From: a virus
Reading direction: 5' to 3' (one strand)
DNA length: 64,000 nucleotides
Virus record (IMG/VR): IMGVR_UViG_3300028376_000005
Span: 1 to 64,000 of that record
Positions within the stretch are counted from its first letter, which is position 1. Every line of letters begins with the position of its first letter. Position numbers and translations under genes: made by a program. Below, in pieces: positions 2,036-63,648 of this stretch. Below the pieces are notes generated by a model. The model was not told the origin of the DNA. It saw only the letters and a list, made by a program, of their open reading frames with translations, and did not search any database.

Positions 2036-2557
2036 ATTGTGTAAAATAAAGAGAGATATCTAAACTTAACAAATTTTACAAGTATAATAATCACACATAA
2101 ATATAAAATATTAATGAATAGTAATTTTAAAATAATAGAAGCCGATTCTCTCTTAGAAGGTGAGTACGACAAACCATTATATGATAAGTTCGTAGAAGCT
2201 TATGGGGTTAATAATTTAGAAGTTGAAACACCACAAGGGTGGATTGATATTGAAGGAATTGGAAAAACTATTAAATATGAAGAATATAAACTAATCCTTG
2301 CTAATGGGTGTGAATTGATATGTGCAGATGACCATATACTATACAGATGTGATAATCTGAACTTTATTAGTAGGAAGTGTGACATAACAGAACTATTTTG
2401 TAAGAACTTAGAATTAGGTGATTTTATAATGACCAAAGAAGGCCCTGAGATGATAATGGATTTTGATAAGACTGGAAAAGAATCACATATGTATGACTTA
2501 CAACTTGGTGTAGGTTCTGATAAAAAATACTACACTAATGGTATATTAAGTCACAAC
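1922..2557 (+). mobile_element. Atypically split intein in helicase Walker A
   Basis: The intein begins at Cys (codon 1922) directly after GGK of the P-loop and ends at SHN (codon ending 2557) before Ser, so the insertion is GK^S. The N-half is 37 residues, the C-half 148. The C-half has block B (ICADDHIL), block F (MYDLQLGVG) and block G (YYTNGILSHN). The break therefore lies between blocks A and B, the atypical short-N-half arrangement known from phage terminase inteins, and not at the usual endonuclease position. No endonuclease gene lies in the 78-nt gap. First residue Cys, penultimate His, final Asn and +1 Ser are all present, so splicing looks possible. Confidence 0.85.
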
Positions 2558-3274
2558 TCACTTTGGATGCAGAACTTTGCAGTGAAGAGTGCCAATAGTG
2601 GACATAACGTACTATACATTACACTAGAGATGAGTGAAAGAAAAGTTATGAAGAGGTTGGGTTCTATGCGTTTGAAAATACCTATAAATGATTATGATAC
2701 AATATCAAAAGATACTGAACTCATAAGAAGGAAGATAAAGGGATTATCTAGTATATCAGAAAATGATTTATTTGATAAGAAGGTAGGTAAGATAATGACT
2801 AAGTTTTGGGCAGCTGGTACTGCAAATATTGATGACTTTGATTATTATATCCAAAAGTTAAAAGATAAGAGAGATATAAAAATAGATATGATTATAGTAG
2901 ATTATATAACACTCATAGCACCATTAAAAGCACCAGGTGTTGATAGTCTCTATACTAAGGGTAAACAACTTGCCGAAGGTTTGAGGGCATTAGGTGCTAA
3001 ATATTCATGCCCAGTTGTAACTGGTGTACAAGTAGCTAAAGATGCTTGGAATTCATCTGATATAACACTAGAAAGTGTACCAGAATCTAAGGCTATCGCA
3101 GAAACTGCCGACACATTTTTTGCAATAATAAGAACGGAAGAAATGAAAAGGCAAAACCTATTCAGATTTAAACTTCTTAAACAAAGAGATGGAGATTTTC
3201 TTAAATCACAGGTTAGACTAACATTAAACACGACATATCTAACATTAGAGGGTGATATGTTTGTTGATCAATAA
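2114..3274 (+). CDS. Split-intein C-half fused to C-terminal fragment of the gp41/DnaB-type helicase
   Basis: Residues 1-148 are the intein C-half ending YYTNGILSHN. Residues 149-386 are the remaining helicase ATPase domain, starting with the Walker A Ser (SLWMQNFA). They continue through the Walker B-like stretch MIIVDYITLI and the sensor region PVVTGVQV, which is typical of DnaB/gp41. The extein resumes exactly where the fragment at 1307 stops. The ATG at 2114 follows an AT-rich stretch (tataaaatatta), which may contain its own promoter. Acts in the replisome with primase. The next gene begins 20 nt downstream. Confidence 0.88.
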   Translation: MNSNFKIIEADSLLEGEYDKPLYDKFVEAYGVNNLEVETPQGWIDIEGIGKTIKYEEYKLILANGCELICADDHILYRCDNLNFISRKCDITELFCKNLELGDFIMTKEGPEMIMDFDKTGKESHMYDLQLGVGSDKKYYTNGILSHNSLWMQNFAVKSANSGHNVLYITLEMSERKVMKRLGSMRLKIPINDYDTISKDTELIRRKIKGLSSISENDLFDKKVGKIMTKFWAAGTANIDDFDYYIQKLKDKRDIKIDMIIVDYITLIAPLKAPGVDSLYTKGKQLAEGLRALGAKYSCPVVTGVQVAKDAWNSSDITLESVPESKAIAETADTFFAIIRTEEMKRQNLFRFKLLKQRDGDFLKSQVRLTLNTTYLTLEGDMFVDQ

Positions 3275-4293: not shown

Positions 4294-5490
4294 ATGATAA
4301 AGGTAGTAAAAAGAAATGGTAAGAAAGAACCAGTAATGCTAGATAAAATTCTAGATAGAATAGAGCAACAAACTTATGGATTAGATAGAAAATGGGTAAG
4401 TCCATTTGATGTTGCACAAAAAGTAATTGGTGGTGTTGCACCAGATATAAAGACCTCAGTCCTAGATAAACTAGCAACCGAGACAGCTGCCGCATTAGCT
4501 ACTAAGCACCCAGATTATTCAATATTAGCATCAAGATTAGCTATAACTGCATTGCATAAAGATACGAAAAAATCATTTTCTGAAACGGTTAAAGATTTAT
4601 ACAAATATATAAATCCAAAGACAAATGAGAAATCACCAATTGTGTCTAAAAGTTTCTATGAGATTGTTAAGAAAAATGCAGATAAGCTAGACTCTGCTAT
4701 AATACATACTAGAGACCATCATTTTGATTTCTTTGGTTTCAAAACATTAGAGAAGTCTTATTTGTTAAAAATAAATGGTGAAGTTGCAGAACGTCCTCAA
4801 TATATGTATATGAGAACTGCCATACAAATATGGCAAGATAATATTGATAAAGTTATTGAGACATATAATACGATGTCTGAGGGGTATTACACACACGCTA
4901 CACCAACTTTATTCAATTCTGGTACTAGGAGACCACAATTATCTTCTTGCTTCTTATTAGACACGGAAGATGATTCTATTGAAGGGATATTTAATACTCT
5001 TAAAGAATCTGCTCAAATATCTAAAAACGCAGGTGGGATAGGTATTAATTTCAATAATGTAAGAGCAAAAGGTAGTTATATAGCAGGTACTAACGGTACT
5101 TCGAATGGTATAATTCCTTTCTTAAAGATTTATAATGAAACTGCTAGAGCAGTTGACCAGTGCTTTACACCAGAGAGTAAAGTAATAACAGAGAGAGGTG
5201 TTATAAACATAAATGAAGTAGAAAAAGGTGACAAAGTCTTGACTAGTGATGGTGTTTATAATTCTGTTATAAAGAGAAAAGATTTTAATAAATCAGATGA
5301 CTTTATAACAATTACAACAAAGAGTGGTGCTAATAGGGTTACGAAAGGACACCAAATATTAGTTATTAGAGGTTTGGATAAAGACATATCTAAAGAAGCC
5401 ATTAAAGAAGGAATTAAGCAAGGTGTATATAATGTAGAATGGATTTCTGCTAATGAATTAATGGAAAGCGATAAAATAGTAAAATACTAA
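4294..5490 (+). CDS. nrdA: Ribonucleotide reductase class Ia large subunit, fragment 1, fused to N-half of split intein 1
   Basis: Residues 1-90 form an ATP-cone allosteric domain (MIKVVKRNGKKEPV). Residues 100-289 are the start of the catalytic barrel, with THATPTLFNSG and the conserved Cys219 in QLSSCFLL, one of the redox-active cysteines (E. coli Cys225). The extein stops at ARAVDQ. Cys290 starts a 109-residue intein N-half with block A (CFTPESKVITERG) and block B (TKGHQILVI). The remaining NrdA is encoded in three more polypeptides downstream. The enzyme converts ribonucleoside diphosphates to deoxy forms for phage DNA synthesis. No nrdB partner lies in this window. Confidence 0.92.
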   Translation: MIKVVKRNGKKEPVMLDKILDRIEQQTYGLDRKWVSPFDVAQKVIGGVAPDIKTSVLDKLATETAAALATKHPDYSILASRLAITALHKDTKKSFSETVKDLYKYINPKTNEKSPIVSKSFYEIVKKNADKLDSAIIHTRDHHFDFFGFKTLEKSYLLKINGEVAERPQYMYMRTAIQIWQDNIDKVIETYNTMSEGYYTHATPTLFNSGTRRPQLSSCFLLDTEDDSIEGIFNTLKESAQISKNAGGIGINFNNVRAKGSYIAGTNGTSNGIIPFLKIYNETARAVDQCFTPESKVITERGVININEVEKGDKVLTSDGVYNSVIKRKDFNKSDDFITITTKSGANRVTKGHQILVIRGLDKDISKEAIKEGIKQGVYNVEWISANELMESDKIVKY

Positions 5491-5496
5491 TATTTG

Positions 5497-5552
5497 TAGT
5501 TTAATATATATAGTAACAATCCTCTAGGGTTTGTAAAAAATATATTAAACTA
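5497..5552 (+). promoter_or_regulatory. Inverted repeat with internal late box upstream of endonuclease gene
   Basis: Perfect 12-bp inverted repeat: tagtttaatata (5497-5508) and tatattaaacta (5541-5552), ending 4 nt before the ATG at 5557. The box TTAATATATA (5501-5510) overlaps the left arm. A transcript arriving from nrdA would fold a hairpin against the start codon, while one starting at the box would lack the left arm. Confidence 0.6.
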
Positions 5553-5556
5553 TAGT

Positions 5557-6480
5557 ATGGTAAAGTGTAATACGGAAGAAACAATTAAAAAATTTAAAAA
5601 AAAGCATAGTAATAAATATAGTTATGAGTTAGTTAAATATAAATCAGCAATATCTAAGGTTAGTATAATATGTAGTAAGCATGGAATATTTGAGATAACG
5701 CCAAATAGTCATTTAAATGGTTCTGGTTGTAGTTTATGTGGTAGAGAAAGAACTGGTGAGAGCAAAAAGTCTGATACATCCTTGTTTGTAAAATCTGCTA
5801 ATAGAGTACATTCTCATAAATATAATTATAATAGATGTACCTATATAACAAATTTAGACAATGTTACAATAACTTGTAAAAAACATGGCGACTTTTACCA
5901 ACAAGCTAGAAAGCATTTATCTGGACAAGGCTGTAAAAAATGTGCTAATGAAAGCCAATATTGTAATTTCGTAGAAAAATGTGAGAAAAAGTATAAAGAC
6001 TATTTATATAGTAAAGTAAACTACAAAGGTATGTATAGTGATGTTATAATAACTTGTAAAAAGCATGGGGATTTCAGTATTAAAGCTGCCAATTTTTATC
6101 ATAAAGGAAGAGGTTGTAAATTATGTAAAACATATAATAAGTCTATTAAAGAAGGCGAATGGTTAGATGATATGGGGATAGATAACATCAATAGAAATGT
6201 GTATATTAATTTTGGTAAGAAGGTTTTCTGTGTAGATGGTATAGATAAGAAAAGAAAAATAATATACGAATTTTATGGTGACTTTTTCCACGGAAATCCT
6301 GAAGTTTATAAAAAAACAGATATAAATCCACTTCTTAAAGAAGAATATGGAAAACTTTATAAAAAAACAAAAGATAAAGAAAACATTATTATCTCAAATG
6401 GATATAAGATAATATATATTTGGGAAAATGATTATAATAAAAATAAAAATAAAAACGGAAAGTATGAAAGAAAACATTGA
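5557..6480 (+). CDS. Free-standing homing endonuclease (EDxHD/Vsr-like) inside nrdA intein 1
   Basis: Protein of 307 residues. Residues 1-200 hold three repeats of a zinc-binding type (KYSYELVKY followed by CSKHGIFE or CKKHGDF and then a CxxC), probably the DNA-binding part. Residues 205-300 resemble the Vsr-like nuclease fold, with IYEFYGDFFHGNPE and IIYIWENDY. Such nucleases make site-specific breaks in alleles lacking the element. It occupies the gap of split intein 1. Its last 17 nt overlap the start of the intein C-half at 6464, so the two are translationally linked. Its start lies next to a hairpin containing a late box. Confidence 0.82.
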   Translation: MVKCNTEETIKKFKKKHSNKYSYELVKYKSAISKVSIICSKHGIFEITPNSHLNGSGCSLCGRERTGESKKSDTSLFVKSANRVHSHKYNYNRCTYITNLDNVTITCKKHGDFYQQARKHLSGQGCKKCANESQYCNFVEKCEKKYKDYLYSKVNYKGMYSDVIITCKKHGDFSIKAANFYHKGRGCKLCKTYNKSIKEGEWLDDMGIDNINRNVYINFGKKVFCVDGIDKKRKIIYEFYGDFFHGNPEVYKKTDINPLLKEEYGKLYKKTKDKENIIISNGYKIIYIWENDYNKNKNKNGKYERKH

Positions 6481-7694
6481 AAGTGGAACAGAATGGATTG
6501 AAGATCCTGTTGATTTAAATCTAATTATAGACAATTTAGATTTTGAAGGTATAGAGGATATATCAATTAATAAAATAGAGAATCAAAATGTTCATGATCT
6601 AGAGATAGAAAATCAACATAATTATATTGTTGATGGGCTAGGAATAGTTCATAACGGTGGAGGTAAATAAGCGTATGCTTCCACTTTAAAAAATTTGGAG
6701 AATTGCTGGGAAATTCTTAGAGTTATCATTACTACAACATAAAGAGTAATCTTAAGTGTGAAAGTTAAAAAAATGATAAATTGGACAATCAGCAGCCGCC
6801 TTTCTTAGGGATAAGAAAAAGGTTCAACGACTAATGAGAGTAATGTAGACCACAAGAAATCAACACGAGCACCAAACACAGAAATGTGAAGATATAGTCT
6901 GATCTTGTATGAAAGTATAAGAAATTAGGATAAAGACCCTAATGATAACAAAGCAAATGAAACGCAAAGGAAGTATAGCCATTTATATGGAACCATGGCA
7001 TGCTGATATTATGGAGTTCTTAGATTTAAGAAAAAACCAAGGTAAGGAAGAAATCAGGGCTAGAGATTTATTCCTAGCTATGTGGATGAATGACCTATTT
7101 ATGGAAAGAGTTGATTTGGACAAAGATTGGCCTTTGATGTGTCCTAACGAATGTAAAGGATTGGGTGACACTTATGGTGATGAATTTCGTGAGTTATACC
7201 TTAAATATGAAAGTGAGGGAAAATATAAAAAGGTTGTTAAGGCTAGAGAAGTTTGGAATAAAATCTTAGAGTCTCAAATAGAAACTGGTACACCTTATAT
7301 ACTCTATAAAGATACTATTAATGAGAGGTCTAATCAAAAGAATATTGGTATTATCAAGAGTTCCAATCTTTGTCTAGACGGTAGTAGCTTGGTAAGATGT
7401 AAGATTAATGGTGTTGAAGAAGAACTTGATATGGTTACTATAGATGGTTTGTTTAAAGATGGTAAGGTAATAGAAGTTTTATCTAGAGATGTTAAGAATG
7501 GTCTTGATGAGTGGTGTCTAGTTGAGAATTCAGGAATGATAAACAATAATGCAGAAACAATTAAAGTAACAGACAAAGAAACTGATAACTTTATAATATG
7601 TACAGAAGATCATAAAATATGGACTGAAAACAGAGGATATATTAAGGCAATTGATTTAAACGTGGATGATATAGTTAAAATTATGGAATCATAA
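6464..7694 (+). CDS. nrdA: NrdA fragment 2: intein-1 C-half, extein, intein-2 N-half (join 6464..6664, 6960..7694)
   Basis: After removal of the group I intron (6665-6959) this reads as one protein. The intein-1 C-half is 64 residues from the ATG at 6464. Then come GGG + [16 protein letters not shown] and 140 residues of the NrdA catalytic barrel ending IIKSSNL. A 107-residue intein-2 N-half follows from Cys at 7371, with a block-B-like CTEDHKIW. Without RNA splicing the frame stops at 6670, four residues after the intein. The ATG at 6464 is chosen because an upstream in-frame start at 6428 would only add residues encoded within the endonuclease gene. This polypeptide must be spliced at both ends to join its neighbours. 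Confidence 0.85.
6665..6959 (+). ncRNA. Group I self-splicing intron in nrdA (295 nt, no ORF)
   Basis: The intron separates GGG and KRKGS of the invariant NrdA motif and restores the frame when removed. P1: exon end gtggaggt (6657-6664) pairs over 8 positions with gcttccac (6677-6684), with the expected U-G pair at the 5' splice site. P10: gcgt (6671-6674) pairs with acgc (6962-6965) of the 3' exon. The last intron base is G (6959). The core has the group I signatures gttcaacgacta (6822-6833) and aagatatagtct (6889-6900), whose gacta/tagtc parts can form P7. It carries no endonuclease gene, so it is either immobile or mobilised in trans. Confidence 0.9.
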
Positions 7695-7715
7695 ATATCG
7701 GCAAATAAAATTATC

Positions 7716-7765
7716 AGAAACACACATAATTAATATATAAAATAAAAATAATTATGTGTGTTTCT
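7716..7765 (+). promoter_or_regulatory. Perfect 16-bp inverted repeat covering an endonuclease start codon, late box in the loop
   Basis: Left arm agaaacacacataatt (7716-7731), right arm aattatgtgtgtttct (7750-7765). The ATG at 7754 lies inside the right arm and the box TTAATATATA (7730-7739) lies at the left arm/loop edge. Read-through RNA would bury the start codon in a 16-bp stem. RNA started just downstream of the box would keep only the right arm and stay open. T4 uses the same logic for its intron endonucleases. Confidence 0.75.
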
Positions 7766-8605
7766 TCTAATTACTTATATATTATCACTGATACAACAAA
7801 ACCAGGTAACTATGAGTTTGGTAACCTTAAGTTTCAGTTCTTACCATTCTACGTTGGTGTTTCTAATACAGAAACCTATTACAAAAGGGAAGACGTGCAT
7901 ATAAAGTATGCTAAAATTAAAAAAGATGTTACCAAAAATAAGTATAAGATGAATATAATAAACAAAATACTTAAATCTAATAAAGAACCACATATATATA
8001 GATTATACGAAAATTCTACAAGAGATTTTATATTTAAAAAAGAAATTGACCTAATACTAATGATTGGTAATAGGTTTGATAAAACAGGACCACTAGTGAA
8101 CATATCAAAAGGTGGTGAAGGTGGTGATACTTTCACAAACAATCCACGCAAGGAAGAAATAAGAGAGAAGCATAGGTTGAATGCAATAGGATCTAAAAAT
8201 AACATGTATGGTTTACCGTTGGAAAAAAGACCATCTCATATTTCAAAACTAAGTGGGACACATTGGAATAAGGATAGTGTTGTAAGCGATTCCACTAGAA
8301 AGAAACTATCAAATAAGAGCAAAGGTCATAATAATAACAAGTCAAAATTTACACTATTATTTGATAAAGATTTCAATTTTATAAAAGAATTTGAATGTTG
8401 TATGTATATAGCAGAACATATAGGATCAACAAAAAAAGCTGTTTCAACAACGGCAAGGAGAAATTCGAAAAAAGAAATCCCTTATCACACAACAAAAGAA
8501 TTCTTTATTATATATAAAGAGGACTGGGAAAATAAATTTAAACATAAAGAGGAAGAAATTAAAGAATTTCTTAGAACTTTTAGAAAAAATAAAAATCAAT
8601 TTTAA
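7754..8605 (+). CDS. Free-standing GIY-YIG homing endonuclease inside nrdA intein 2
   Basis: Protein of 283 residues. The N-terminal catalytic module shows the GIY-YIG-like pair LYIITD (residues 8-13) and FYVGVS. A likely catalytic Glu follows in the helix FKKEIDLI, and the NISKGGEGGDTF loop is typical of phage Seg-like enzymes. The C-terminal half has NUMOD-like DNA-binding segments (GSKNNMYG; SDSTRKKLSNKSKG; an EFECCMYIAEHIGSTKKAVS helix-turn-helix-like stretch). It lies between the halves of split intein 2. Its start codon sits in a 16-bp stem with an internal late promoter box. Confidence 0.85.
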   Translation: MCVSSNYLYIITDTTKPGNYEFGNLKFQFLPFYVGVSNTETYYKREDVHIKYAKIKKDVTKNKYKMNIINKILKSNKEPHIYRLYENSTRDFIFKKEIDLILMIGNRFDKTGPLVNISKGGEGGDTFTNNPRKEEIREKHRLNAIGSKNNMYGLPLEKRPSHISKLSGTHWNKDSVVSDSTRKKLSNKSKGHNNNKSKFTLLFDKDFNFIKEFECCMYIAEHIGSTKKAVSTTARRNSKKEIPYHTTKEFFIIYKEDWENKFKHKEEEIKEFLRTFRKNKNQF

Positions 8606-8630
8606 TAAAAAAATAAAAAAATAAAAAAGC

Positions 8631-9710
8631 ATGATAAAAATAGAAAGAGTAAAAAATAGACCTGTTTATGATATTACAGTAAATAAAAACAATAATTTTT
8701 ATGCAAATAACATATTAGTTCATAATTGTGGTGAGATAGTAGAAGCCACGGGAATTACAAAAGCACAAAAGCCTATATTGGAAAACAAGGAACTTTTAGA
8801 AAAATTAAATCTAGGAGAGTTTTATGGCAAAGAAAGTGTTAATGAGACTGCTGTTTGTAATTTGGCATCTATTGCACTACCTAAGTTTGTGAATAAGAAT
8901 AAAACATATAATCATAAAAAGCTATACGAAACTGCTTATACTGCAACTGTAAATCTAAATAATGTAATTGATTATAATTATTATCCTTCTGAAAATGCTA
9001 AATTTTCTAATATATTACACAGACCGATTGGTTTGGGTGTACAAGGATTAGCAGATGTATTTTTCCTAATCGGAATTCCTTATGACTGTGATGATGCTAA
9101 AGCACTTAATAAAGAAATATTCGAAACTATTTATTACGGAGCTTTATCTGCATCGAATGATTTGGCTAAGGAACAAGGAACATATGAGACTTATAAAGGT
9201 TCTCCTTTATCAGAGGGTAAATTTCAGTTTGACTTATGGGGTGCTACACCAACAAAAAGATGGGATTGGGAAAAGCTAAGAGTTAAAATATTAGAGCATG
9301 GTGTTAGAAACTCTTTAACTACGTGTGTTATGCCGACCGCTTCGTGTTTTACTAGTGATGGTACTATATTCACAGAGGATGGTGTAAAGTCTTATAGAAA
9401 TATAATGAATGATATGGATATAGATTGGGAGAAAATAGAAGAAACCAATGAGCAAGGATGGATTAAATTTAAAACACCATTAATGGTAGAAACTAGATTT
9501 GGTCTTAGAGAGTCTAATAAAATATTCTACAATGGTCATAAGGAAGTTATAGAAATCGAATTAGAAGATGGGAACATATTTAAATGTACTGAAAATCATA
9601 AGTTCTTAGTAGAAAGGGATGGTGCTGATGAATGGATTACTGCTAATGATTTAGTAGAAAGTGATGAGATTGTTGAAAGTAGCCTAATGCTCGAAAATAC
9701 GAGGGAGTAG
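8631..9710 (+). CDS. nrdA: NrdA fragment 3: intein-2 C-half, extein, intein-3 N-half
   Basis: Residues 1-32 are the intein-2 C-half (MIKIERVKNRPVYDI to NNILVHN). The extein starts CGEIVEATG. Its Cys33 is the thiyl-radical Cys and Glu35 the catalytic Glu of NrdA (E. coli Cys439 and Glu441). AVCNLASIAL carries the second redox Cys (E. coli Cys462). The extein ends at VMPTAS, after 206 residues. Cys239 begins a 121-residue intein-3 N-half with block B (CTENHKFLVE). Both termini must be joined by trans-splicing to build the active site. Confidence 0.9.
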   Translation: MIKIERVKNRPVYDITVNKNNNFYANNILVHNCGEIVEATGITKAQKPILENKELLEKLNLGEFYGKESVNETAVCNLASIALPKFVNKNKTYNHKKLYETAYTATVNLNNVIDYNYYPSENAKFSNILHRPIGLGVQGLADVFFLIGIPYDCDDAKALNKEIFETIYYGALSASNDLAKEQGTYETYKGSPLSEGKFQFDLWGATPTKRWDWEKLRVKILEHGVRNSLTTCVMPTASCFTSDGTIFTEDGVKSYRNIMNDMDIDWEKIEETNEQGWIKFKTPLMVETRFGLRESNKIFYNGHKEVIEIELEDGNIFKCTENHKFLVERDGADEWITANDLVESDEIVESSLMLENTRE

Positions 9711-9720
9711 GCATAGGACA

Positions 9721-9773
9721 AGGCATCACTTTAATATATAAATAAAAAAGTATTTATGGTTAAAGTGATGTCT
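9721..9773 (+). promoter_or_regulatory. 14-bp inverted repeat around an endonuclease start codon, late box in left arm/loop
   Basis: Left arm aggcatcactttaa (9721-9734), right arm ttaaagtgatgtct (9760-9773), 14 bp including one G-U pair. TTAATATATA is at 9731-9740. The ATG at 9756 lies in the loop two bases before the right arm, so the first codons of the endonuclease are the stem. Confidence 0.7.
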
Positions 9774-10994
9774 AAGTCTTTCTCTTCAAAGCGAATGTTT
9801 TTAAAAAAATTAAAAGGTGTGAAAATAGTTGAAAGTGATATAGAATGTGGTATAGATGAATTATTTGCGTGGTATGGAATACCAGAGAGTATAAATTTAT
9901 GTAAAAAAATTGACATAATAAACCTAAAATTAAATAATAACATCGATGATAGGCAGTTAAAAACATATTTAAAAAAATCATTAAATACTTTTGAAATTAA
10001 AAGGTTTTTATCCTATATTGAATATAAAAGTAATAATCCTAAAGATGTTAGTTCAGAAAATTATTTTAAGTTAGTATATGGTAAAGGTTGGGAAAATTAT
10101 AAAGACAAGAAAGCAAAGGATAGAAAATCCCCATATGACTTAGAGTATGTTGCCAAGTCCAATAATATATCAACTGATAAAGCTAAATGTAAGATATCAA
10201 AAATGAAATCAGACAAAGCAACTAACCTAGTTGGATTTATAAGAAGACATGGTAAAGAAAATGGTGAAAAAATGTTTCAAAAATTTCAATTAACTAGCAA
10301 ACATACATTAGAAAAGTATATTAACAAACACGGAAGTATCATAGGATTAGAAAAATGGAATAAGTATTTGTTGGTTAAATCAGAAACTTCAGCATTTAAT
10401 AAAAATTTTTGGATCAACAAAGGATTTACTAAAAAAGAATCAATCGCTAAAGTCAGAAAAATATCAGACAATAGTAGTTTGAAATATTTTATAAATAAAC
10501 ATAATGGTAATATAGATGTTGCAAAGACTGAATTTATCAAATTTATTAGGAAAAAGGGTGTAAATTTCAATAATGCAAGTAAGGAGTCATTAACTTACTT
10601 TAATAGTTTGTATAAAAAACTAATAGAATTTGGTATATATGATTGTGATATACACTTAGGTGCATTTGGTAAAAATGAGTTATGCCTTTTCTATGAAGAT
10701 GGTTGCTATCTTTATGATTTTGCTATAAAAAGTCATAAGCTAATTATAGAATATCACGGTGAGAGATGGCATCCTAACCCTGATAGATTATCTGATAAAG
10801 AATGGAATTCGTGGAAATGTATTGCTAGTGGTATCAGTGCAAATGAAAAGCATTTAAGAGATAGGCATAAAGAAAAAGTGGTATATGACAATGGTTTCAA
10901 ATTACTAGAAATATGGTCTAATGATACATATAAACTTAATTGTTATAAAATAAATAACTTTTTAGAAGAAAATAATATAAAAATAAATAAATAA
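9756..10994 (+). CDS. Free-standing homing endonuclease (EDxHD/Vsr-like) inside nrdA intein 3
   Basis: Protein of 412 residues. The N-terminal 300 residues are basic and helical, with repeated units resembling phage DNA-binding modules (FIRRHGKENGEKMFQKF, YINKHGSIIGLEKWNKY, FINKHNGNIDVAKTEF). Residues 310-412 carry the nuclease: LYDFAIKSHKLIIEYHGE, RWHPNP, and FKLLEIWSND. The C-terminal part resembles the endonuclease at 62067-63062 within terL, so these two probably share ancestry. The gene ends 2 nt before the intein C-half at 10997. Translation is probably limited to late transcripts by the inverted repeat at its start. Confidence 0.78.
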   Translation: MVKVMSKSFSSKRMFLKKLKGVKIVESDIECGIDELFAWYGIPESINLCKKIDIINLKLNNNIDDRQLKTYLKKSLNTFEIKRFLSYIEYKSNNPKDVSSENYFKLVYGKGWENYKDKKAKDRKSPYDLEYVAKSNNISTDKAKCKISKMKSDKATNLVGFIRRHGKENGEKMFQKFQLTSKHTLEKYINKHGSIIGLEKWNKYLLVKSETSAFNKNFWINKGFTKKESIAKVRKISDNSSLKYFINKHNGNIDVAKTEFIKFIRKKGVNFNNASKESLTYFNSLYKKLIEFGIYDCDIHLGAFGKNELCLFYEDGCYLYDFAIKSHKLIIEYHGERWHPNPDRLSDKEWNSWKCIASGISANEKHLRDRHKEKVVYDNGFKLLEIWSNDTYKLNCYKINNFLEENNIKINK

Positions 10995-10996
10995 TT

Positions 10997-11776
10997 ATGA
11001 AAATAAAAAAGATTACAAAATCACAAACGACTAAACCTACATGGGATATAGAAGTAGAAGATGTTCACGAGTATCTAACTGGAAATATGTGTGTGTCACA
11101 TAATACTGCACAAATACTAGGTAATGAGGCATCTTATGAAGCACAGACCTCTAATATGTACTCTAGAGGAACATTATCAGGTACATTTATTATGGTTAAT
11201 AAGTATCTTGTAAAAGAGCTAGTTAAACAAGGTATATGGGATGATAATATAAGAAAGAAAATTATAACAGAAAATGGTTCTGTTCAAAACATACCAGAGA
11301 TACCTACAAATCTTAAAGAGATATTTAAGACAGTTTATGAGGTTAAGCAGAAGGATGTTATTGACATGTGTGCTGATAGGGGGGCTTTTGTTGACCAAAC
11401 ACAATCTATGAATATTTTTATGGATTCTCCAAACTTTGCTAAGCTAACTGCTATGCACTTTTATGGATGGGGTAGAAGAAAATTCTTAAAAGACGAAAGA
11501 GGTCAAGATGTTATACCAAGTGGTGATAATATAGAAATTATTTATAATGAAGATGGTACTCCTAGATTTTATAGAGATAAAAAATCTTGTCTAAAAACTG
11601 GTATATATTATCTAAGGAATAAAGGAGCAGCTGATGCTGTTAAATTTACTACTAAGCAAGTAACAGAAGAAGTTAAAGTTGATGAATCAGAAATGTCACC
11701 AAAAGAATTCCAAACTATGGTTGAAAATTCTAGAAATGCACAAGATGATGATGACTGTTTAATGTGTGGTTCTTAA
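10997..11776 (+). CDS. nrdA: NrdA fragment 4: intein-3 C-half fused to C-terminal NrdA
   Basis: Residues 1-36 are the intein-3 C-half. Residues 37-259 are the last part of NrdA, from TAQILGNEASYEAQTSNMYS through QTQSMNIFMDSPNFAKLTAMHFYGW to the flexible tail ending CLMCGS. That Cys pair relays electrons from thioredoxin or glutaredoxin. Adding all four exteins gives 858 residues, normal for class Ia NrdA with an ATP-cone. A strong hairpin terminator follows at 11802. Confidence 0.92.
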   Translation: MKIKKITKSQTTKPTWDIEVEDVHEYLTGNMCVSHNTAQILGNEASYEAQTSNMYSRGTLSGTFIMVNKYLVKELVKQGIWDDNIRKKIITENGSVQNIPEIPTNLKEIFKTVYEVKQKDVIDMCADRGAFVDQTQSMNIFMDSPNFAKLTAMHFYGWGRRKFLKDERGQDVIPSGDNIEIIYNEDGTPRFYRDKKSCLKTGIYYLRNKGAADAVKFTTKQVTEEVKVDESEMSPKEFQTMVENSRNAQDDDDCLMCGS

Positions 11777-58700: not shown

Positions 58701-61700
58701 TTACCTGCGTCTTCCATATCCACTACTTGACTTATATTTGCTCTGACCATATCCACCACCAGTTCTAGAACCAAGTGTTTTTTTCTTCACATCTAAAAAG
58801 TGTGTGTAATCATTACTTTCTATATAATCAGATTTCTTCATACACTCATTTATGTAATCAACTATTTCCTTATCAACATGTTTGTTCATCCATTCGTGTA
58901 TCATCTCTGTAAACTCGTTCTTTTCGAATATAGATGTAGCATTTACAATAGTCATGACACAATTATGTACAACTATCCCATTTGCTACATAACTATTATC
59001 ATCCTCTACTTCTAAATTATAAGTTGTTCCAGTATAATTATACTTTTCATTTCTTTGTAGTACTGACGAATATTCAAAATCAGAAATCTTTCTCATATAT
59101 GACCTTTCTAAACTATCTTCATAAATAGATACCCAATATTGGCTTTTCGTAGGCTTACCATATCTATGTCTTTTATTATAGGATATTACTGCATGTTTGT
59201 CTAATGATATAGATATATCTCTCATAGTCAATGCTAGTTGAAAACTAGTTGAACATCCTATGTAATGTTTAGTCTTACCAGGTGTTTCACAGAGCCAACC
59301 ATCTCCCTTTATCCAATAATCTAGGACTAGGGACATTTTCTCTTTATCTAGTTTGTTATAGAGCATTTCGGGGAATATTTTCTCTTTATCTTCATCATAG
59401 CATTTAGAAAATATTTCCCATAAGAATCTATTATAAAATATCACAGTAGTGCAATTATTTCTATTCTGTACATGATATTTTAAATTCCAGTTATTTATTA
59501 TATCCTTCATTTCATCAATAAGAGTTAAATCTTTATCATTAAAGGCTAAAGTTATTCGGTAAGTATTATGAGATGGTTTATAACTGTTACCATCTGCTAA
59601 GAATAAGCCTAAAAACTTAGCAAAATTATTATCTAGTTCTATTTCCTTTATTTTAAAATTAGATGACGGAGAATATTTATTCCTTTCAAATAATTCTTGA
59701 TATTTGATATTATTAACATCACCAGTATATAGAGGTGATTTTATAACAACACACCTAGATTTATTAGAAATGTCACTTGGTAAAATCCACTCTCGCTTAA
59801 GATAATTATTATAATTCTTTCTATTTTTCTTTGAGTAGTCATTTTTTGGAACATATATAGGATGGTTATATGTTATATCTAAGCTAGGTTGGCCTCTAAA
59901 TTTGATTCTGTGCATAACACCATCAAAATCTTTTTTACATATATTTGTTACTGGTTTGTAATTTCCTAAATGTGTTAACACCAACTCACCTAATTTGATA
60001 TCTTTTATTCTTTTATAACCATTTATAGTCTTTATAAGAGTGTTTGGCAAAACGCAATCATCGTTTCCATTATCTGCTGCATATTTTATATTGCCAGAAC
60101 TAGTTGTATGTTTTACAAATGTGGTTATTTCCCTTATGGTGTCTTCATTATTTATTGAGAAAGATTTACTAAGCATTAGAGATTGGTAGTCTTTTATAAG
60201 TAAATTTTTTAAACTTGTTACTTTAAGTCCTACCTTTTCTTCTGGTGAATCTATTCTGTGCTTATATCTAACAAATACAGAAGAACCATAATCATTAATA
60301 CCATCAAAAACATGAGGTAGTTCTGCTAGTAATGTATTTCCATAGTTGTTAAGTTCTAAAACTATTTTAAGGTTATCTGGATTAAAATATTCAAAAGCTA
60401 ATATATAAAGCAATTCTGACATTTGTTTAATAGATATTATATTACTTCGATATATCCCAATTTGTTCTAGTTTGAAAAAATCCTTTATTGATGAATACTT
60501 TTCTTTTTGTATATCTATGACCTCTCTACTTTTATTACTTATTCTGAATATGTTTATAACAGAAAAATCTTGACCTAATCCCTCTGCAAGGTCAATTGAT
60601 AAGACTATTTTATATTCCTTTCTTTTTATAGGGTTGTATATATCATAATCATCAACCCATTTTAAATTTTCATAGGAAAAATTTAGCTTATCTTCAAATT
60701 CATATATCTCCTCCCACTCATAAAGAATTTTATTATTCAATAAATGGTCTATAATATTTTCACTTAGTAAAGATTTACTAGCATTTACAAATCTAAGACC
60801 GTATTCTTGGTTAAAAGCATCTTCTCCACCAATATCTTTTATTGCCTCATCCTTCCATGTAGTAAGTTCTGCTAACTCTAGTATAGATATCTCTTTCCCA
60901 TCGGGTGTTTTTATATTAAATCCAACAACATCCTCATCATGACAATAATCATTGTTATAAACCTCGATTACATATTTTTGTAAATCAACACTCCAACTCA
61001 TTTCGACCTTAGTATCAGCACCCCATTTATTATGTACTTGATTAAGAATATCATCCTTTTCTATTTTGTTTTCGTATAATTTATGATCATTAAGCCTTAT
61101 ATATGTAACAAACCTACCAGGGACTTGATACCAGTAAACCCTCATGGGGGTGTAGTTGTTTCTTTGTGGGTCACCAGCTGGTCGTTCTGCATTAGTAAGT
61201 AATTTATGAAATAAATTCATACCATTTGGTGTAGATGTGATTATTATTTTAGAGTTTTTTATTGCAGATACTGTTGGAAAAACCGCAGTATAATATGGTT
61301 CTATTATGTTTGAAGGAATATGTGCAAATTCATCTAAATAAAGAACATCAATAGTAAAACCAATAGCTGGAGTCTTTGTCCTAGCAGAGGTCTTAATACG
61401 ACAACCATTGTCAAATGTTAGTGATTTTTGATTCCATGTTTTTATACCAGGTTTTAAAAAAAATGGTAGTAATGAATAAATGGATTTTATCTTGTCAACA
61501 ATCTCAACTGATGTATCTCCCTTGTTAGCTACAATCATAATGTTTTTATCATTATTGAATAGTATTGTATGAAGCATAAATATAGAAGCAGATATAGTAT
61601 TGTGTGAAAGTATTCCATTTGTGTAGAACCTATGATTCTGATGGTCTACCGATAAATCAAACATAGATGATTTATAATCTTCCTTTTTTATATGCTTCAC

Positions 61701-62048
61701 AATACTATTGCCATTTTTGGTCTTTATAGTATCGCCTATTTTTAATTCTTTACAGAATACTTCATCAAAATATTCATCAAATAATATATGATTATCTGCA
61801 CAAGTTAAGCTAAGACCGTCAATAGTTTTGATATTATAATGATTAAATGGTTGTGTTAAATGTATCTCTGATACTGCCTCATATCCAGTATCAGTCTTTA
61901 CTCTAATATCTATTAAAGATATAGATTTTAATATTTTTTTAGAAATATCATCCTCATCCAATGATACATTTCTATATTGGTATTTTTCTATCAACTCAAT
62001 AGATTTTTCTATCAACTCAATCAATATTTTTTTAAGAAGTGTAATCAT
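58701..62048 (-). CDS. terL: Terminase large subunit (gp17) C-terminal fragment: split-intein C-half, ATPase/nuclease extein, internal cis intein
   Basis: Protein of 1115 residues. Residues 1-150 are the C-half of the split intein (ending RFYTNGILSHN). Residue 151 is the Walker A Thr, and the extein TISASIFMLHTI continues gp17. Walker B is VLYLDEFAH (235-243), followed by the coupling motif ITSTPNG. Nuclease residues are Asp485 in LSIDLAEG, Glu565 in LELNNYG and the final Asp-Asp 663-664. Residues 665-1029 are a full intein with LAGLIDADG motifs. The extein resumes CVMTIVNATS and ends in a Gly/Ser/Arg-rich tail. It packages DNA through the portal and cuts concatemers. One trans- and one cis-splicing event are required. 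Confidence 0.92.
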   Translation of the reverse strand: MITLLKKILIELIEKSIELIEKYQYRNVSLDEDDISKKILKSISLIDIRVKTDTGYEAVSEIHLTQPFNHYNIKTIDGLSLTCADNHILFDEYFDEVFCKELKIGDTIKTKNGNSIVKHIKKEDYKSSMFDLSVDHQNHRFYTNGILSHNTISASIFMLHTILFNNDKNIMIVANKGDTSVEIVDKIKSIYSLLPFFLKPGIKTWNQKSLTFDNGCRIKTSARTKTPAIGFTIDVLYLDEFAHIPSNIIEPYYTAVFPTVSAIKNSKIIITSTPNGMNLFHKLLTNAERPAGDPQRNNYTPMRVYWYQVPGRFVTYIRLNDHKLYENKIEKDDILNQVHNKWGADTKVEMSWSVDLQKYVIEVYNNDYCHDEDVVGFNIKTPDGKEISILELAELTTWKDEAIKDIGGEDAFNQEYGLRFVNASKSLLSENIIDHLLNNKILYEWEEIYEFEDKLNFSYENLKWVDDYDIYNPIKRKEYKIVLSIDLAEGLGQDFSVINIFRISNKSREVIDIQKEKYSSIKDFFKLEQIGIYRSNIISIKQMSELLYILAFEYFNPDNLKIVLELNNYGNTLLAELPHVFDGINDYGSSVFVRYKHRIDSPEEKVGLKVTSLKNLLIKDYQSLMLSKSFSINNEDTIREITTFVKHTTSSGNIKYAADNGNDDCVLPNTLIKTINGYKRIKDIKLGELVLTHLGNYKPVTNICKKDFDGVMHRIKFRGQPSLDITYNHPIYVPKNDYSKKNRKNYNNYLKREWILPSDISNKSRCVVIKSPLYTGDVNNIKYQELFERNKYSPSSNFKIKEIELDNNFAKFLGLFLADGNSYKPSHNTYRITLAFNDKDLTLIDEMKDIINNWNLKYHVQNRNNCTTVIFYNRFLWEIFSKCYDEDKEKIFPEMLYNKLDKEKMSLVLDYWIKGDGWLCETPGKTKHYIGCSTSFQLALTMRDISISLDKHAVISYNKRHRYGKPTKSQYWVSIYEDSLERSYMRKISDFEYSSVLQRNEKYNYTGTTYNLEVEDDNSYVANGIVVHNCVMTIVNATSIFEKNEFTEMIHEWMNKHVDKEIVDYINECMKKSDYIESNDYTHFLDVKKKTLGSRTGGGYGQSKYKSSSGYGRRR
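58962..60056 (-). mobile_element. Cis-splicing intein with LAGLIDADG endonuclease in terL nuclease site
   Basis: 365 residues: Cys1 (CVLPNTLIKTING), block B ITYNHPIYV, LAGLIDADG motifs FLGLFLADG (812-820) and LVLDYWIKGDG (907-917), block F YNLEVEDDNSYVANG and end VVHN, with +1 Cys. Insertion is NDD^CVM, right after the catalytic Asp of the TerL nuclease motif. All splicing residues are present. Confidence 0.92.
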
Positions 62049-63297
62049 TTTTTTTATTATTTTTATCTATACATTATTTAAAAAATCTATACATTTTTTA
62101 ATAGTTAAATCTTTTTTGCTTTTATATTCAGTATCCCATATTATTAGAATATCAAATCCTTTTGATTTAGCAATATTTATTTTTAAATTATCTTTATCCC
62201 ATATTTCCCTTGCAGTAGGCCCACTTTCTTTATAGAAAGGATGTGGGTAATCGTTCTCTTTGAAAGTTTTAGGATTTGCATGGTATAAATCACCATTGTA
62301 TTCGATAATTTTCATTCTTTTTCTATCAGTGAAGTCATATGAGAAAAATCCTACATCTTTAACTGATATAAAGAACTCTTTATTTTTTATTGCATAGTGT
62401 ACACGTTTTAGTTCATTATCTGTATAAATCTTACTTATCTTTTTAAATAGGTCTTGTGATATTTCAGAATAGCCACATTTCATATTACCATTTTCTGCCA
62501 AATTTTTCTGCCAAAGTGTTTGTCTATCTAGCCATCTTTTCTTACCACCAACATCACCATATTTTTCTACACATTTTTTTAGAGAAAATGTACTTTGTCT
62601 TTCACTAAGCATCTTTTTAGATGTTTCCTCATCATAACCTTTCAGTAAATAGTATTCTAAAGTAGTATCTGATATTCTATCCTTAATAGCTTCCTTTGCA
62701 AAAATACTTATATGCTTCTCTATATTCTCTATACCTTCATATTTTGAAAAGTTCTTTGAAAATGGACTTCTCGATTTTCTTTCTAATTCAGTTGTATTTT
62801 CTTTGTGATTAGGATTTTTTCTGCCTCTTATTTTATCTGCAAACATTTTTTTATACTTTTCTGTCTTCATATGCTTACCACTTTTAATTGTTGTCTTAGC
62901 CTTATCTGATAATGCCATTATAGGAGCACCTTCGTACAATTCTTTATATTCTTTAGTAGTCATATTATTATGTGCAAATTTTAAATGTTTACCATATATT
63001 CTTTTACATTGCTCACCACATATTCTACATGTTACAGTTTCTTTATTATCATTTATTATCATAATTTATTCTGTTTTATTATTAAATGCTTTTATATATA
63101 AAAAGATGTTGGCTTGTTATCAAATAGGTAAATTATTTTTCTAGCAAAAATAAAATATCATATAGTTTAATTTTTATTTTTTCTAATAATGTTAGTGATC
63201 TTTCTTGCTTAAGCATGTAGTAATATAGTTTACCAATTCTATATTCTTTTCTAATTTCCTTGCTCTTAATTTCGCATAAAGTGTTGAAGGTCAAGCA
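61599..63297 (-). mobile_element. Atypically split intein in TerL Walker A with embedded endonuclease gene
   Basis: N-half 63297-63136 (54 residues from Cys118 of the first fragment) and C-half 62048-61599 (150 residues). Insertion is ASRQVGK^T in the P-loop. The C-half shares TCADNHIL, FCKELKIGDTIKTKNG and YTNGILSHN with the helicase intein. The break lies early, before block B. The residues next to the break on both halves are amphipathic helices. The gap contains the endonuclease gene 62067-63062. Confidence 0.9.
62067..63062 (-). CDS. Free-standing homing endonuclease (EDxHD/Vsr-like) inside terL
   Basis: Protein of 331 residues. The N-terminal zinc finger CRICGEQCKRIYGKHLKFAH (a MucR/Mom-like CxxC-x(n)-H-x(4)-H) leads into helical DNA-binding segments with GRKNPNHKEN. 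The C-terminal nuclease has SYDFTDRKRMKIIEYNGD, YHANPKTF, and GFDILIIWDTEY. The nuclease resembles that of the endonuclease in nrdA intein 3 (9756-10994). It lies between the two parts of split TerL, 70 nt after the N-fragment and 18 nt before the C-fragment. Confidence 0.82.
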   Translation of the reverse strand: MIINDNKETVTCRICGEQCKRIYGKHLKFAHNNMTTKEYKELYEGAPIMALSDKAKTTIKSGKHMKTEKYKKMFADKIRGRKNPNHKENTTELERKSRSPFSKNFSKYEGIENIEKHISIFAKEAIKDRISDTTLEYYLLKGYDEETSKKMLSERQSTFSLKKCVEKYGDVGGKKRWLDRQTLWQKNLAENGNMKCGYSEISQDLFKKISKIYTDNELKRVHYAIKNKEFFISVKDVGFFSYDFTDRKRMKIIEYNGDLYHANPKTFKENDYPHPFYKESGPTAREIWDKDNLKINIAKSKGFDILIIWDTEYKSKKDLTIKKCIDFLNNV

Positions 63298-63648
63298 CTT
63301 ACCCACCTGCCTACTAGCCATTAATATATTGAATCGATTATCAACAAAATTATCTAATATGTCAGCTTGATAGTCTCTAAGTGTTATTGCTCCAATAGAA
63401 CCATCTTCTCTTTTCACCTTACAGTATTTTTCGGTAAAATGGTGTATATCTAGTGCACATTTAATGTATTCTCCTTGTTCGGCACTTGTCATCTTAAATG
63501 TAAGACCTGATCTTCTTAACCCTATTTCGTTTTTAAGCCAAGGATTTTGAAACCTTTTTAGTACTATACCATCATTTATCTTATCAGTAGCCTCGGTAAC
63601 GTTCTCACTACTAAATACCATTTGTCTTTCTTTCTTAATCTTTGCCAT
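63133..63648 (-). CDS. terL: Terminase large subunit (gp17) N-terminal fragment fused to split-intein N-half
   Basis: Protein of 171 residues. Residues 1-117 are the TerL N-terminus: FQNPWLKNEIGLRRSG, TSAEQGEYIKCALDIHHFTE, ITLRDYQADILDNF (adenine-binding region) and the P-loop start ILMASRQVGK. Cys118 starts the intein N-half (CLTFNTLCEIKSKEIR), which ends with an amphipathic helix (LLEKIKIKLYDILFLLEK). Without the second fragment it lacks any ATPase activity. Confidence 0.9.
   Translation of the reverse strand: MAKIKKERQMVFSSENVTEATDKINDGIVLKRFQNPWLKNEIGLRRSGLTFKMTSAEQGEYIKCALDIHHFTEKYCKVKREDGSIGAITLRDYQADILDNFVDNRFNILMASRQVGKCLTFNTLCEIKSKEIRKEYRIGKLYYYMLKQERSLTLLEKIKIKLYDILFLLEK

Follow-up and report, generated by a model that had tools for sequence, protein, structure and literature searches.

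A four-polypeptide phage NrdA and a recurring family of inteins followed by glycine

We analyzed a 64,000-base stretch of viral DNA (the window, bases 1-64000 of the 78,198-base IMG/VR record IMGVR_UViG_3300028376_000005) in which NrdA, the large subunit of a class Ia ribonucleotide reductase (RNR), is encoded at 4294-11776 on the + strand as four polypeptides. The gene is broken by three split inteins, each with an endonuclease-like gene inside it, and by a 295-nt group I intron, and its joined exteins total 858 aa. Such an architecture is of a known kind, though an extreme case of it; the deeper result is a family of inteins, to which the first intein of this gene belongs, whose +1 residue is Gly. 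Intein classes are defined by the nucleophiles used, and efficient ligation is deemed to require Cys, Ser or Thr at +1; if our reading is correct, Gln and Gly are ligated with no Cys, Ser or Thr at the seam. An earlier note on this DNA had described the fractured gene and left the Gly after intein 1 unremarked.

The broken NrdA gene and its relatives

Extein 1 (4294-5160, 289 aa, ending AVDQ) carries the ATP cone, the all-alpha domain and the start of the barrel (Pfam PF03477, PF00317 and PF02867), and in relatives it runs on into extein 2. It is followed by the N half of intein 1 (5161-5490, 109 aa and a stop, with Cys1 and a block B TKGH), the free-standing endonuclease-like gene 1 (5557-6480, 307 aa) and the C half of intein 1 (6464-6655), which ends in His-Asn. 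The start codon of this C half lies inside gene 1, giving a 17-base overlap, and there is an earlier in-frame ATG at 6428. Extein 2 (140 aa) opens with three codons, GGG (6656-6664), which are placed by the empty site AVDQ/GGGKRK of relatives (the slash marks the junction). The intron follows at 6665-6959, nine bases 3' of intein 1, its ends placed by comparison with relatives and by alignment to homologues, and extein 2 resumes as KRKGS...SNL (6960-7370, PF02867). Intein 2 is made up of an N half (7371-7694, 107 aa and a stop, with Cys1 and TEDH), the free-standing gene 2 (7754-8605, 283 aa, weakly GIY-YIG-like by a PF22945 match at E 0.012, below the cut-off) and a 32-aa C half (8631-8726) ending HN, whose +1 residue is the catalytic Cys. 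Extein 3 (8727-9344, 206 aa, CGEI...MPTAS, PF02867) precedes the N half of intein 3 (9345-9710, 121 aa and a stop, with Cys1 and TENH), the free-standing endonuclease-like gene 3 (9756-10994, 412 aa) and a 36-aa C half (10997-11104) that ends HN and is followed by Thr. The C-terminal part of gene 3 is Vsr-like (TIGR00632 vsr, E 0.0032, below the cut-off), and the gene also matches phrog_22677, whose function is unassigned. Extein 4, TAQILG...CLMCGS (11105-11773, 223 aa, or to 11776 with its stop; PF02867), completes the protein.

In Pfam scans, the ATP cone, the all-alpha domain and the barrel are all recognized, distributed over the pieces, and together the pieces have what defines a class Ia NrdA: these three domains, the catalytic cysteines and a C-terminal CxxC. 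Among PDB sequences, the joined protein best matches large subunits of human type (5d1y and 3hnc) and of yeast type (1zyz). The cysteine motifs SSC, SNLC and AVCN align with these relatives, and the C-terminal CLMCGS aligns weakly (20 bits). The continuous 858-residue class Ia NrdA proposed in the earlier note is confirmed by the Pfam domains and by the alignment to uninterrupted relatives. The junctions that it gave (VDQ-GGG, SNL-CGE and TAS-TAQ) are right, and relatives without the insertions match across them. Its four polypeptides and three split inteins are present as ORFs (open reading frames) and intein halves at the positions listed above, as are its three endonuclease-like genes, one inside each intein, for which the family matches are strong for gene 1 and below cut-off for genes 2 and 3. 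A complete nrdA elsewhere was to have counted against that proposal; neither the 78,198-base record nor that of a near-identical virus, L005 (201,264 bases), gave a second NrdA match, and both records are fragments. Site 1 lies between Gln and Gly of effector loop 2, the intron three codons further on, site 2 just before the catalytic Cys and site 3 at MPTAS/TAQ, and all of the breaks fall in constrained parts of NrdA. The names "loop 2" and "thiyl cysteine" for these positions are established. The Gln of site 1 is Ala in the aligned yeast RNR1 structure 3tb9.

TIGR01443 exceeded its cut-off of 15.6 at all three C halves (16.6, 30.1 and 18.9 bits for inteins 1, 2 and 3); at the C half of intein 1, which is also supported by alignment, PF14890 reached 23.5 bits, below its cut-off. 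Among the N halves, PF14890 exceeded its cut-off at intein 3 alone (45.7 versus 35.8 bits). TIGR01445 (cut-off 24.5) scored 32.1 bits at the N half of intein 3 and, at that of intein 1, 22.5 bits in one scan and 25.7 in another; PF01079 fell below its cut-off there (27.9 versus 29.7 bits), and homologues at the same site provide further evidence. The N half of intein 2 had no intein-family match of its own in the Pfam and TIGR profile scans and was recognized from the homologous N halves that L025, L027, L029, L030, L035 and L055 have at this site. Inteins 2 and 3 have the full set of class 1 features, namely Cys1, the block B Thr and His, a terminal HN, and Cys or Thr at +1. Intein 1 has Cys1, the block B Thr and His and the C-terminal His-Asn, and it lacks the +1 Cys, Ser or Thr.

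We compared this locus with a sample of 46 loci, namely 44 loci on viral contigs that encode an extein 2 relative, plus two records of huge phages, LR756502 (642 kb) and LR756504 (636 kb). These two were taken from the 3592 phage records matched by extein 1 and are its closest relatives among them. Alignment to the joined NrdA runs in one piece, from residue 60 or earlier to residue 750 or later, in 31 of the 46 loci; a single but shorter alignment was obtained for 7, and the remaining 8 gave several pieces. The stretch comprising site 1 and the intron is continuous in 43 and broken in three (L005, L031 and L053), in each case by an intein together with an intron. Because 31 of 46 relatives align in one piece and 43 of 46 are continuous across site 1 and the intron, we conclude that the NrdA architecture is not due to chance. 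An assembly error was considered and rejected, as the near-identical L005 comes from a separate IMG/VR record and has breaks identical to those of the window.

Relatives carry different subsets of the interruptions, which indicates that each break and the intron is a separate polymorphic insertion. Site 1 is interrupted in L031, L053, L055 and L060, site 2 in L025, L027, L029, L030, L035, L042 and L055, and site 3 in L031, L042, L055 and L060. In L031, sites 1 and 3 and the intron are present, and intein 1 encloses no gene; in L042, the interrupted sites are 2 and 3, and here it is intein 2 that lacks an enclosed gene. The same GIY-YIG-like gene occupies site 2 in L027, L029, L030 and L035, and also in L025, a contig that stops short of the C half. 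L060 combines a split site 1 and the intron with a mini-intein at site 3 that is contiguous. L055, which was found via its intein, has three split sites and the intron as in the window, its site 3 containing no more than remnants of a gene; this virus is not alone in having a four-piece NrdA. The earlier note had called the fracture exceptional; three breaks with an intron in one gene are indeed extreme, but fractured nrdA genes were already known and the full set recurs in L055. Split inteins with no gene inside are seen at L031 6121-6682, L060 2559-3110 and L063 6001-6530, and the split of an intein seems to outlast the loss of its endonuclease gene. The site 3 mini-intein of L060 (4390-4920) is in one frame and ends SHN/TASILG; the window, L031, L042 and L055 are split at this place.

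Inteins with Gly at +1 in loop 2 of NrdA

At VDQ/GGG in effector loop 2, the +1 residue of intein 1 is Gly; at inteins 2 and 3, it is Cys and Thr. An alternative end of intein 1 that would supply a nucleophilic +1 residue was rejected, as close relatives place exactly three Gly behind DQ, and the HN of intein 1 is likewise followed by three. A search with the N half of intein 1, which is blind to the C end, returned 26 loci, of which nine are in NrdA at site 1, and all nine have Cys1 and HN/GGG. The eight inteins of other genes in the same list for which the C end was read all have Cys at +1, several of them coming from one gene family. The DNA pattern for HN/GGG[K/R]RKG marked NrdA intein ends in 31 of 31 viral stretches; the same pattern in bacterial and archaeal genomes gave 23 stretches, 9 of them NrdA inteins and 14 not. 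In total, we count 27 distinct Gly+1 intein ends at NrdA site 1 (18 phage and 9 Bacteroidota). The N part is available for 25, and each has Cys1; 14 are split and 11 contiguous. We found no report of an intein with Gly at +1 in the literature searched, of which coverage was partial, and we do not claim that none is in print.

The nine bacterial inteins are contiguous and 336-358 aa long, and they come from metagenome-assembled genomes (MAGs) titled Saprospiraceae (three), Chitinophagales (two), Cytophagales (two), Hymenobacter (one) and Bacteroidia (one); the contiguous phage forms are L065 and L089. All 11 contiguous forms fall on one side of a tree branch (98/95 support), and Cys1, H72, D345, H352 and H362-N363 are invariant among them. 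We read H72 as the block B His, D345 and H352 as the block F Asp and His, and H362-N363 as the terminal pair. In the split Gly+1 C halves of L083, L063, L086 and L091, PNY replaces HNY at the presumed block F His. Among phage records, the N half of intein 1 had 11 matches, namely LR756504, which is a site 1 carrier, Thermus phage phiLo, in an RNR gene, and nine Gordonia records, in head genes. For the contiguous intein of L065, seven phage records matched; these matches lie in genes for DNA polymerase or anaerobic RNR and share 25-31% identity with it.

Purifying selection acts on those Gly+1 intein pairs that were tested. Among contiguous inteins, four pairs gave a synonymous divergence (pS) of 0.54-0.91 and a nonsynonymous divergence (pN) of 0.06-0.21, with two dS values saturated, and the N half of split intein 1 gave pS 0.69 and pN 0.24 between the window and L058. 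With 27 distinct ends recurring, Cys1 in 25 of 25 and purifying selection in the pairs tested, Gly at +1 is not the decay of a single copy. A structure model of the contiguous L129 intein, built with six extein residues on each side, had a predicted local distance difference test (pLDDT) of 87.8 and a predicted template modeling score (pTM) of 0.89. It matched known homing-endonuclease inteins along its entire length, and the best match was 7qss (Z 30.3, root-mean-square deviation 3.2, 324 residues aligned). The HINT part alone matched, for example, 6y75, a bacterial intein-like (BIL) domain, BIL2, and 1mi8 and 2lwy (Z 17.6, 17.3 and 17.1). Since the HINT part of the model matches both about equally, the predicted fold does not decide between a mini-intein and a BIL domain.

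Proposed joining of the four chains

We consider it fairly probable that one NrdA is made from the four chains by splicing of the group I intron, canonical trans-splicing at inteins 2 and 3 and, at intein 1, attack of a Gly amine on the Cys1 thioester. The group I intron would be excised from the mRNA, joining GGG to KRKGS, and the chains would be E1-IN1, IC1-E2-IN2, IC2-E3-IN3 and IC3-E4 (E, extein; IN and IC, N and C intein halves). Intein 2, whose +1 Cys is the catalytic thiyl cysteine, and intein 3, with Thr at +1, would trans-splice by the canonical route. At intein 1, the Cys1 thioester would form, the terminal Asn would cyclize, and the freed amine of the extein 2 Gly would attack the thioester to give the Gln-Gly bond of loop 2; having no side chain, Gly should be the least hindered amine for such an attack. 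The one RNA splicing and three trans-splicing events expected by the earlier note fit the anatomy, but intein 1, with Gly at +1, cannot take the canonical pathway. Passages of PMC4031507, a 2014 review, propose for type A BIL domains a Cys1 thioester, Asn cyclization and attack of the freed amine on the thioester.

Because loop 2 of NrdA must keep its glycines, an intein at this place could survive only by aminolysis or by cleavage that leaves a working nicked enzyme. The latter is the main rival to ligation: the Gly+1 inteins would only cleave, at both ends, and NrdA would consist of two chains nicked in loop 2 and assembled noncovalently, which we think unlikely. N-terminal cleavage through thioester hydrolysis is normally slow, and the nick would fall within loop 2, beside the Gln that is Ala in 3tb9. 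What speaks for cleavage is the missing +1 nucleophile of intein 1, together with statements in parts of PMC4031507 and PMC7664689 that steps 2 and 4 are carried out by the Cys, Ser or Thr at +1 and that cleavage predominates in BIL domains, which lack this residue; in addition, a passage of PMC10448857 describes a split RNR, of a phage unnamed there, as functional in the form of two peptides. Aminolysis is nevertheless favored, because the Gly+1 family persists in genomes in which no other RNR was found. All nine Bacteroidota carriers have NrdB and none has NrdD, and in seven of them PF02867 matches only within the intein-bearing NrdA, so that in these bacteria no other RNR large subunit was found.

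From this evidence, we lean slightly toward a further natural mode of splicing, in which a mobile Gly+1 intein family, split or contiguous and spread over phages and Bacteroidota, ligates its exteins with no +1 nucleophile and has cells and phages that depend on it for DNA precursors. In this phage, such a mode would operate alongside two canonical split inteins and a group I intron within one four-chain enzyme. Several points weigh against ligation. Each splicing step, the aminolysis included, is inferred from sequence. In the parts of PMC7891396 concerned, an S+1A change in the AceL NrdHF split intein, which belongs to class 3, abolished splicing. The pattern scans demanded HN and GGG and are thus no measure of how often these are lost. 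For the N half of intein 1, the comparison of the window with L053, the most distant split pair, gave pS 0.55 and pN 0.38, a weaker constraint that is close to that of gene 1 (pS 0.57, pN 0.36). Further RNR genes are present in two of the bacterial genomes (two in G006 and one in G014); these genomes are MAGs of unstated completeness; and in G013 a stop and a break of the frame interrupt the N-terminal extein, while the G012 contig starts inside extein 1. In the order to which G012 belongs, the intein is found in 3 of 148 genomes (nine match at E 0.001, six of them at 23-25% identity over part of the query), which is consistent with the distribution expected of a sporadic mobile element. A conserved Gly+1 family within the sole RNR found in several bacterial genomes makes the question of the +1 residue directly testable.

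A different view of the locus is that nrdA is decaying, with the phage NrdA no longer made, the host enzyme used in its place and the pieces a residue of repeated homing. The many interruptions would fit, as would the nrdA degeneration in Campylobacter phages mentioned in part of PMC3653736, and we found no NrdB in the 78-kb or 201-kb records. However, the 436-kb relative G005 has its NrdB a long way from NrdA (the two adjoin in G003), so the absence of NrdB from fragments says little. All of the frames are open, and the catalytic motifs that align with human and yeast RNR1 are present. Between the window and L005, synonymous and nonsynonymous changes number two and zero in extein 1, two and two in extein 2 (137 codons), and seven and three in the N half of intein 1. 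We therefore regard decay of the locus as very doubtful.

Intron, endonuclease-like genes and known systems

The single group I intron named in the earlier note was borne out by a targeted scan, in which RF00028 scored 57.5 bits in the window (E 5.4e-14; gathering score 50); a fast whole-window Rfam scan listed nothing at this place. RF00028 scored 60.4 bits in L053 and 70.2 bits in L060, and it was matched over the whole model in all three; in L055, it scored 26 bits, under the gathering score. By-eye inspection found that the 5' exon GGUGGAGGU is pairable with the intron-internal GCUUCCACU, with a U.G pair at the splice site. Were the intron not removed in time, extein 2 might also be made separately from an internal ATG at 6942, which lies 18 bases 5' of the 3' splice site and begins an open frame that continues into extein 2. 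We give this little credence, as L055 has a stop (MIK*) before MKRKGS, so that a start of the 6942 type is not conserved, and as full-length matches to the intron model recur in L053 and L060.

Although intein 1 and the intron occur together in all three broken loci of the 46-locus sample, the idea that they depend on each other was rejected, since L062, L063 and L065 have an intein at site 1 with no intron. The five intron-bearing inteins fall on one side of a single tree branch (98/95 support), and for this reason a single acquisition suffices. Lying only nine bases apart, intein 1 and the intron could both be converted by one cleavage event, and they may have been co-converted as one unit in this way. 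The intron of L055 contains a 205-aa ORF that is weakly related to the site 3 gene of L042 (E 1e-4). Whereas this endonuclease-like ORF (L055 4363-4980) is intronic, the split intein that lies nine bases upstream of the intron encloses no such ORF; a mobility gene seems able to sit in either an intein or an intron.

The endonuclease-like genes inside the inteins would be their mobility part, by which the inteins would home. Gene 1 matches phrog_681 "endonuclease" (E 3.7e-31) and phrog_559 "HNH endonuclease" (E 6.5e-27), and it has a C-terminal part in common with gene 3 (26% over 108 aa, E 4e-8). Gene 2 is 57% and 68% identical to the gene in the same place in L027 and L035. At L031 8355-9962, a 535-aa gene inside intein 3 fails to match the window's gene 3 at E 1e-3, despite sharing its site, and matches that of L042 weakly. 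The halves of the three inteins are 28-35% alike, and cross-pairing among the three pairs looks less likely on this measure, so that the orthogonal set described in the earlier note is a putative one; the four-chain NrdA is a natural test of partner fidelity among several split inteins in one protein.

Dassa et al. (2009, NAR 37:2560) are said to have described fractured genes of metagenomic phages, nrdA among them, in which a split intein is accompanied by a free-standing endonuclease gene, partly Vsr-like. These resemble the present locus in that the halves of a split intein, separated by a free-standing endonuclease gene, interrupt the gene of an enzyme, whereas the window has three breaks and a group I intron in one gene, and an intein 1 with Gly at +1. 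Part of PMC3653736, citing Dassa 2009, counts seven nrdA and two nrdJ genes interrupted by inteins in GOS data, and fractured nrdA genes have been known since 2009. Type A BIL domains are alike in having a C-terminal His-Asn, an N-end thioester and no +1 nucleophile, and intein 1 has both the His-Asn and the missing nucleophile. BIL domains lie in hypervariable regions of nonconserved proteins, according to a passage of PMC7765530; in contrast, the Gly+1 inteins are mobile, with LAGLIDADG or free-standing endonucleases, and lie in the conserved AVDQ/GGGKRK of NrdA. Because intein 1 is in a conserved core and not in a hypervariable region, we do not file it as a BIL domain, and, unlike in the BIL setting, the exteins at this site must be joined exactly. 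Class 1 inteins such as gp41-1 and TliVMA share the HINT fold, Cys1, a TxxH-like block B and His-Asn, and intein 1 differs from them by its Gly at +1. The NrdA of Aeromonas phage Aeh1 is reportedly split by a homing endonuclease gene with no intein halves, its two chains being held together noncovalently. That protein is also a phage class Ia NrdA in pieces; in the window, by contrast, intein halves flank every break. A legend in PMC3653736 calls the Aeh1 split an intein, and another part of that paper describes nrdE of Brochothrix phage A9 as four ORFs with three introns and an intein-encoded endonuclease. That gene is likewise an RNR large subunit in four ORFs, where the window has three split inteins instead.

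Two further genes of the window are fractured. A DnaB-type helicase (1307-2035 and 2114-3274, + strand) is broken at GGK/C ... SHN/S, with a very short N half (∼37 aa) and, on an ORF of its own, a long C half; there is no gene between the pieces, and it looks like an atypically split intein. On the - strand, a gene that by eye resembles a terminase large subunit (58701-63648) has an N part (63133-63648) ending GK/C, followed by a Vsr-like-looking gene (62067-63062). Its C part (58701-62048) starts with a C intein (SHN/T) and contains a second, contiguous intein (VVHN/C).

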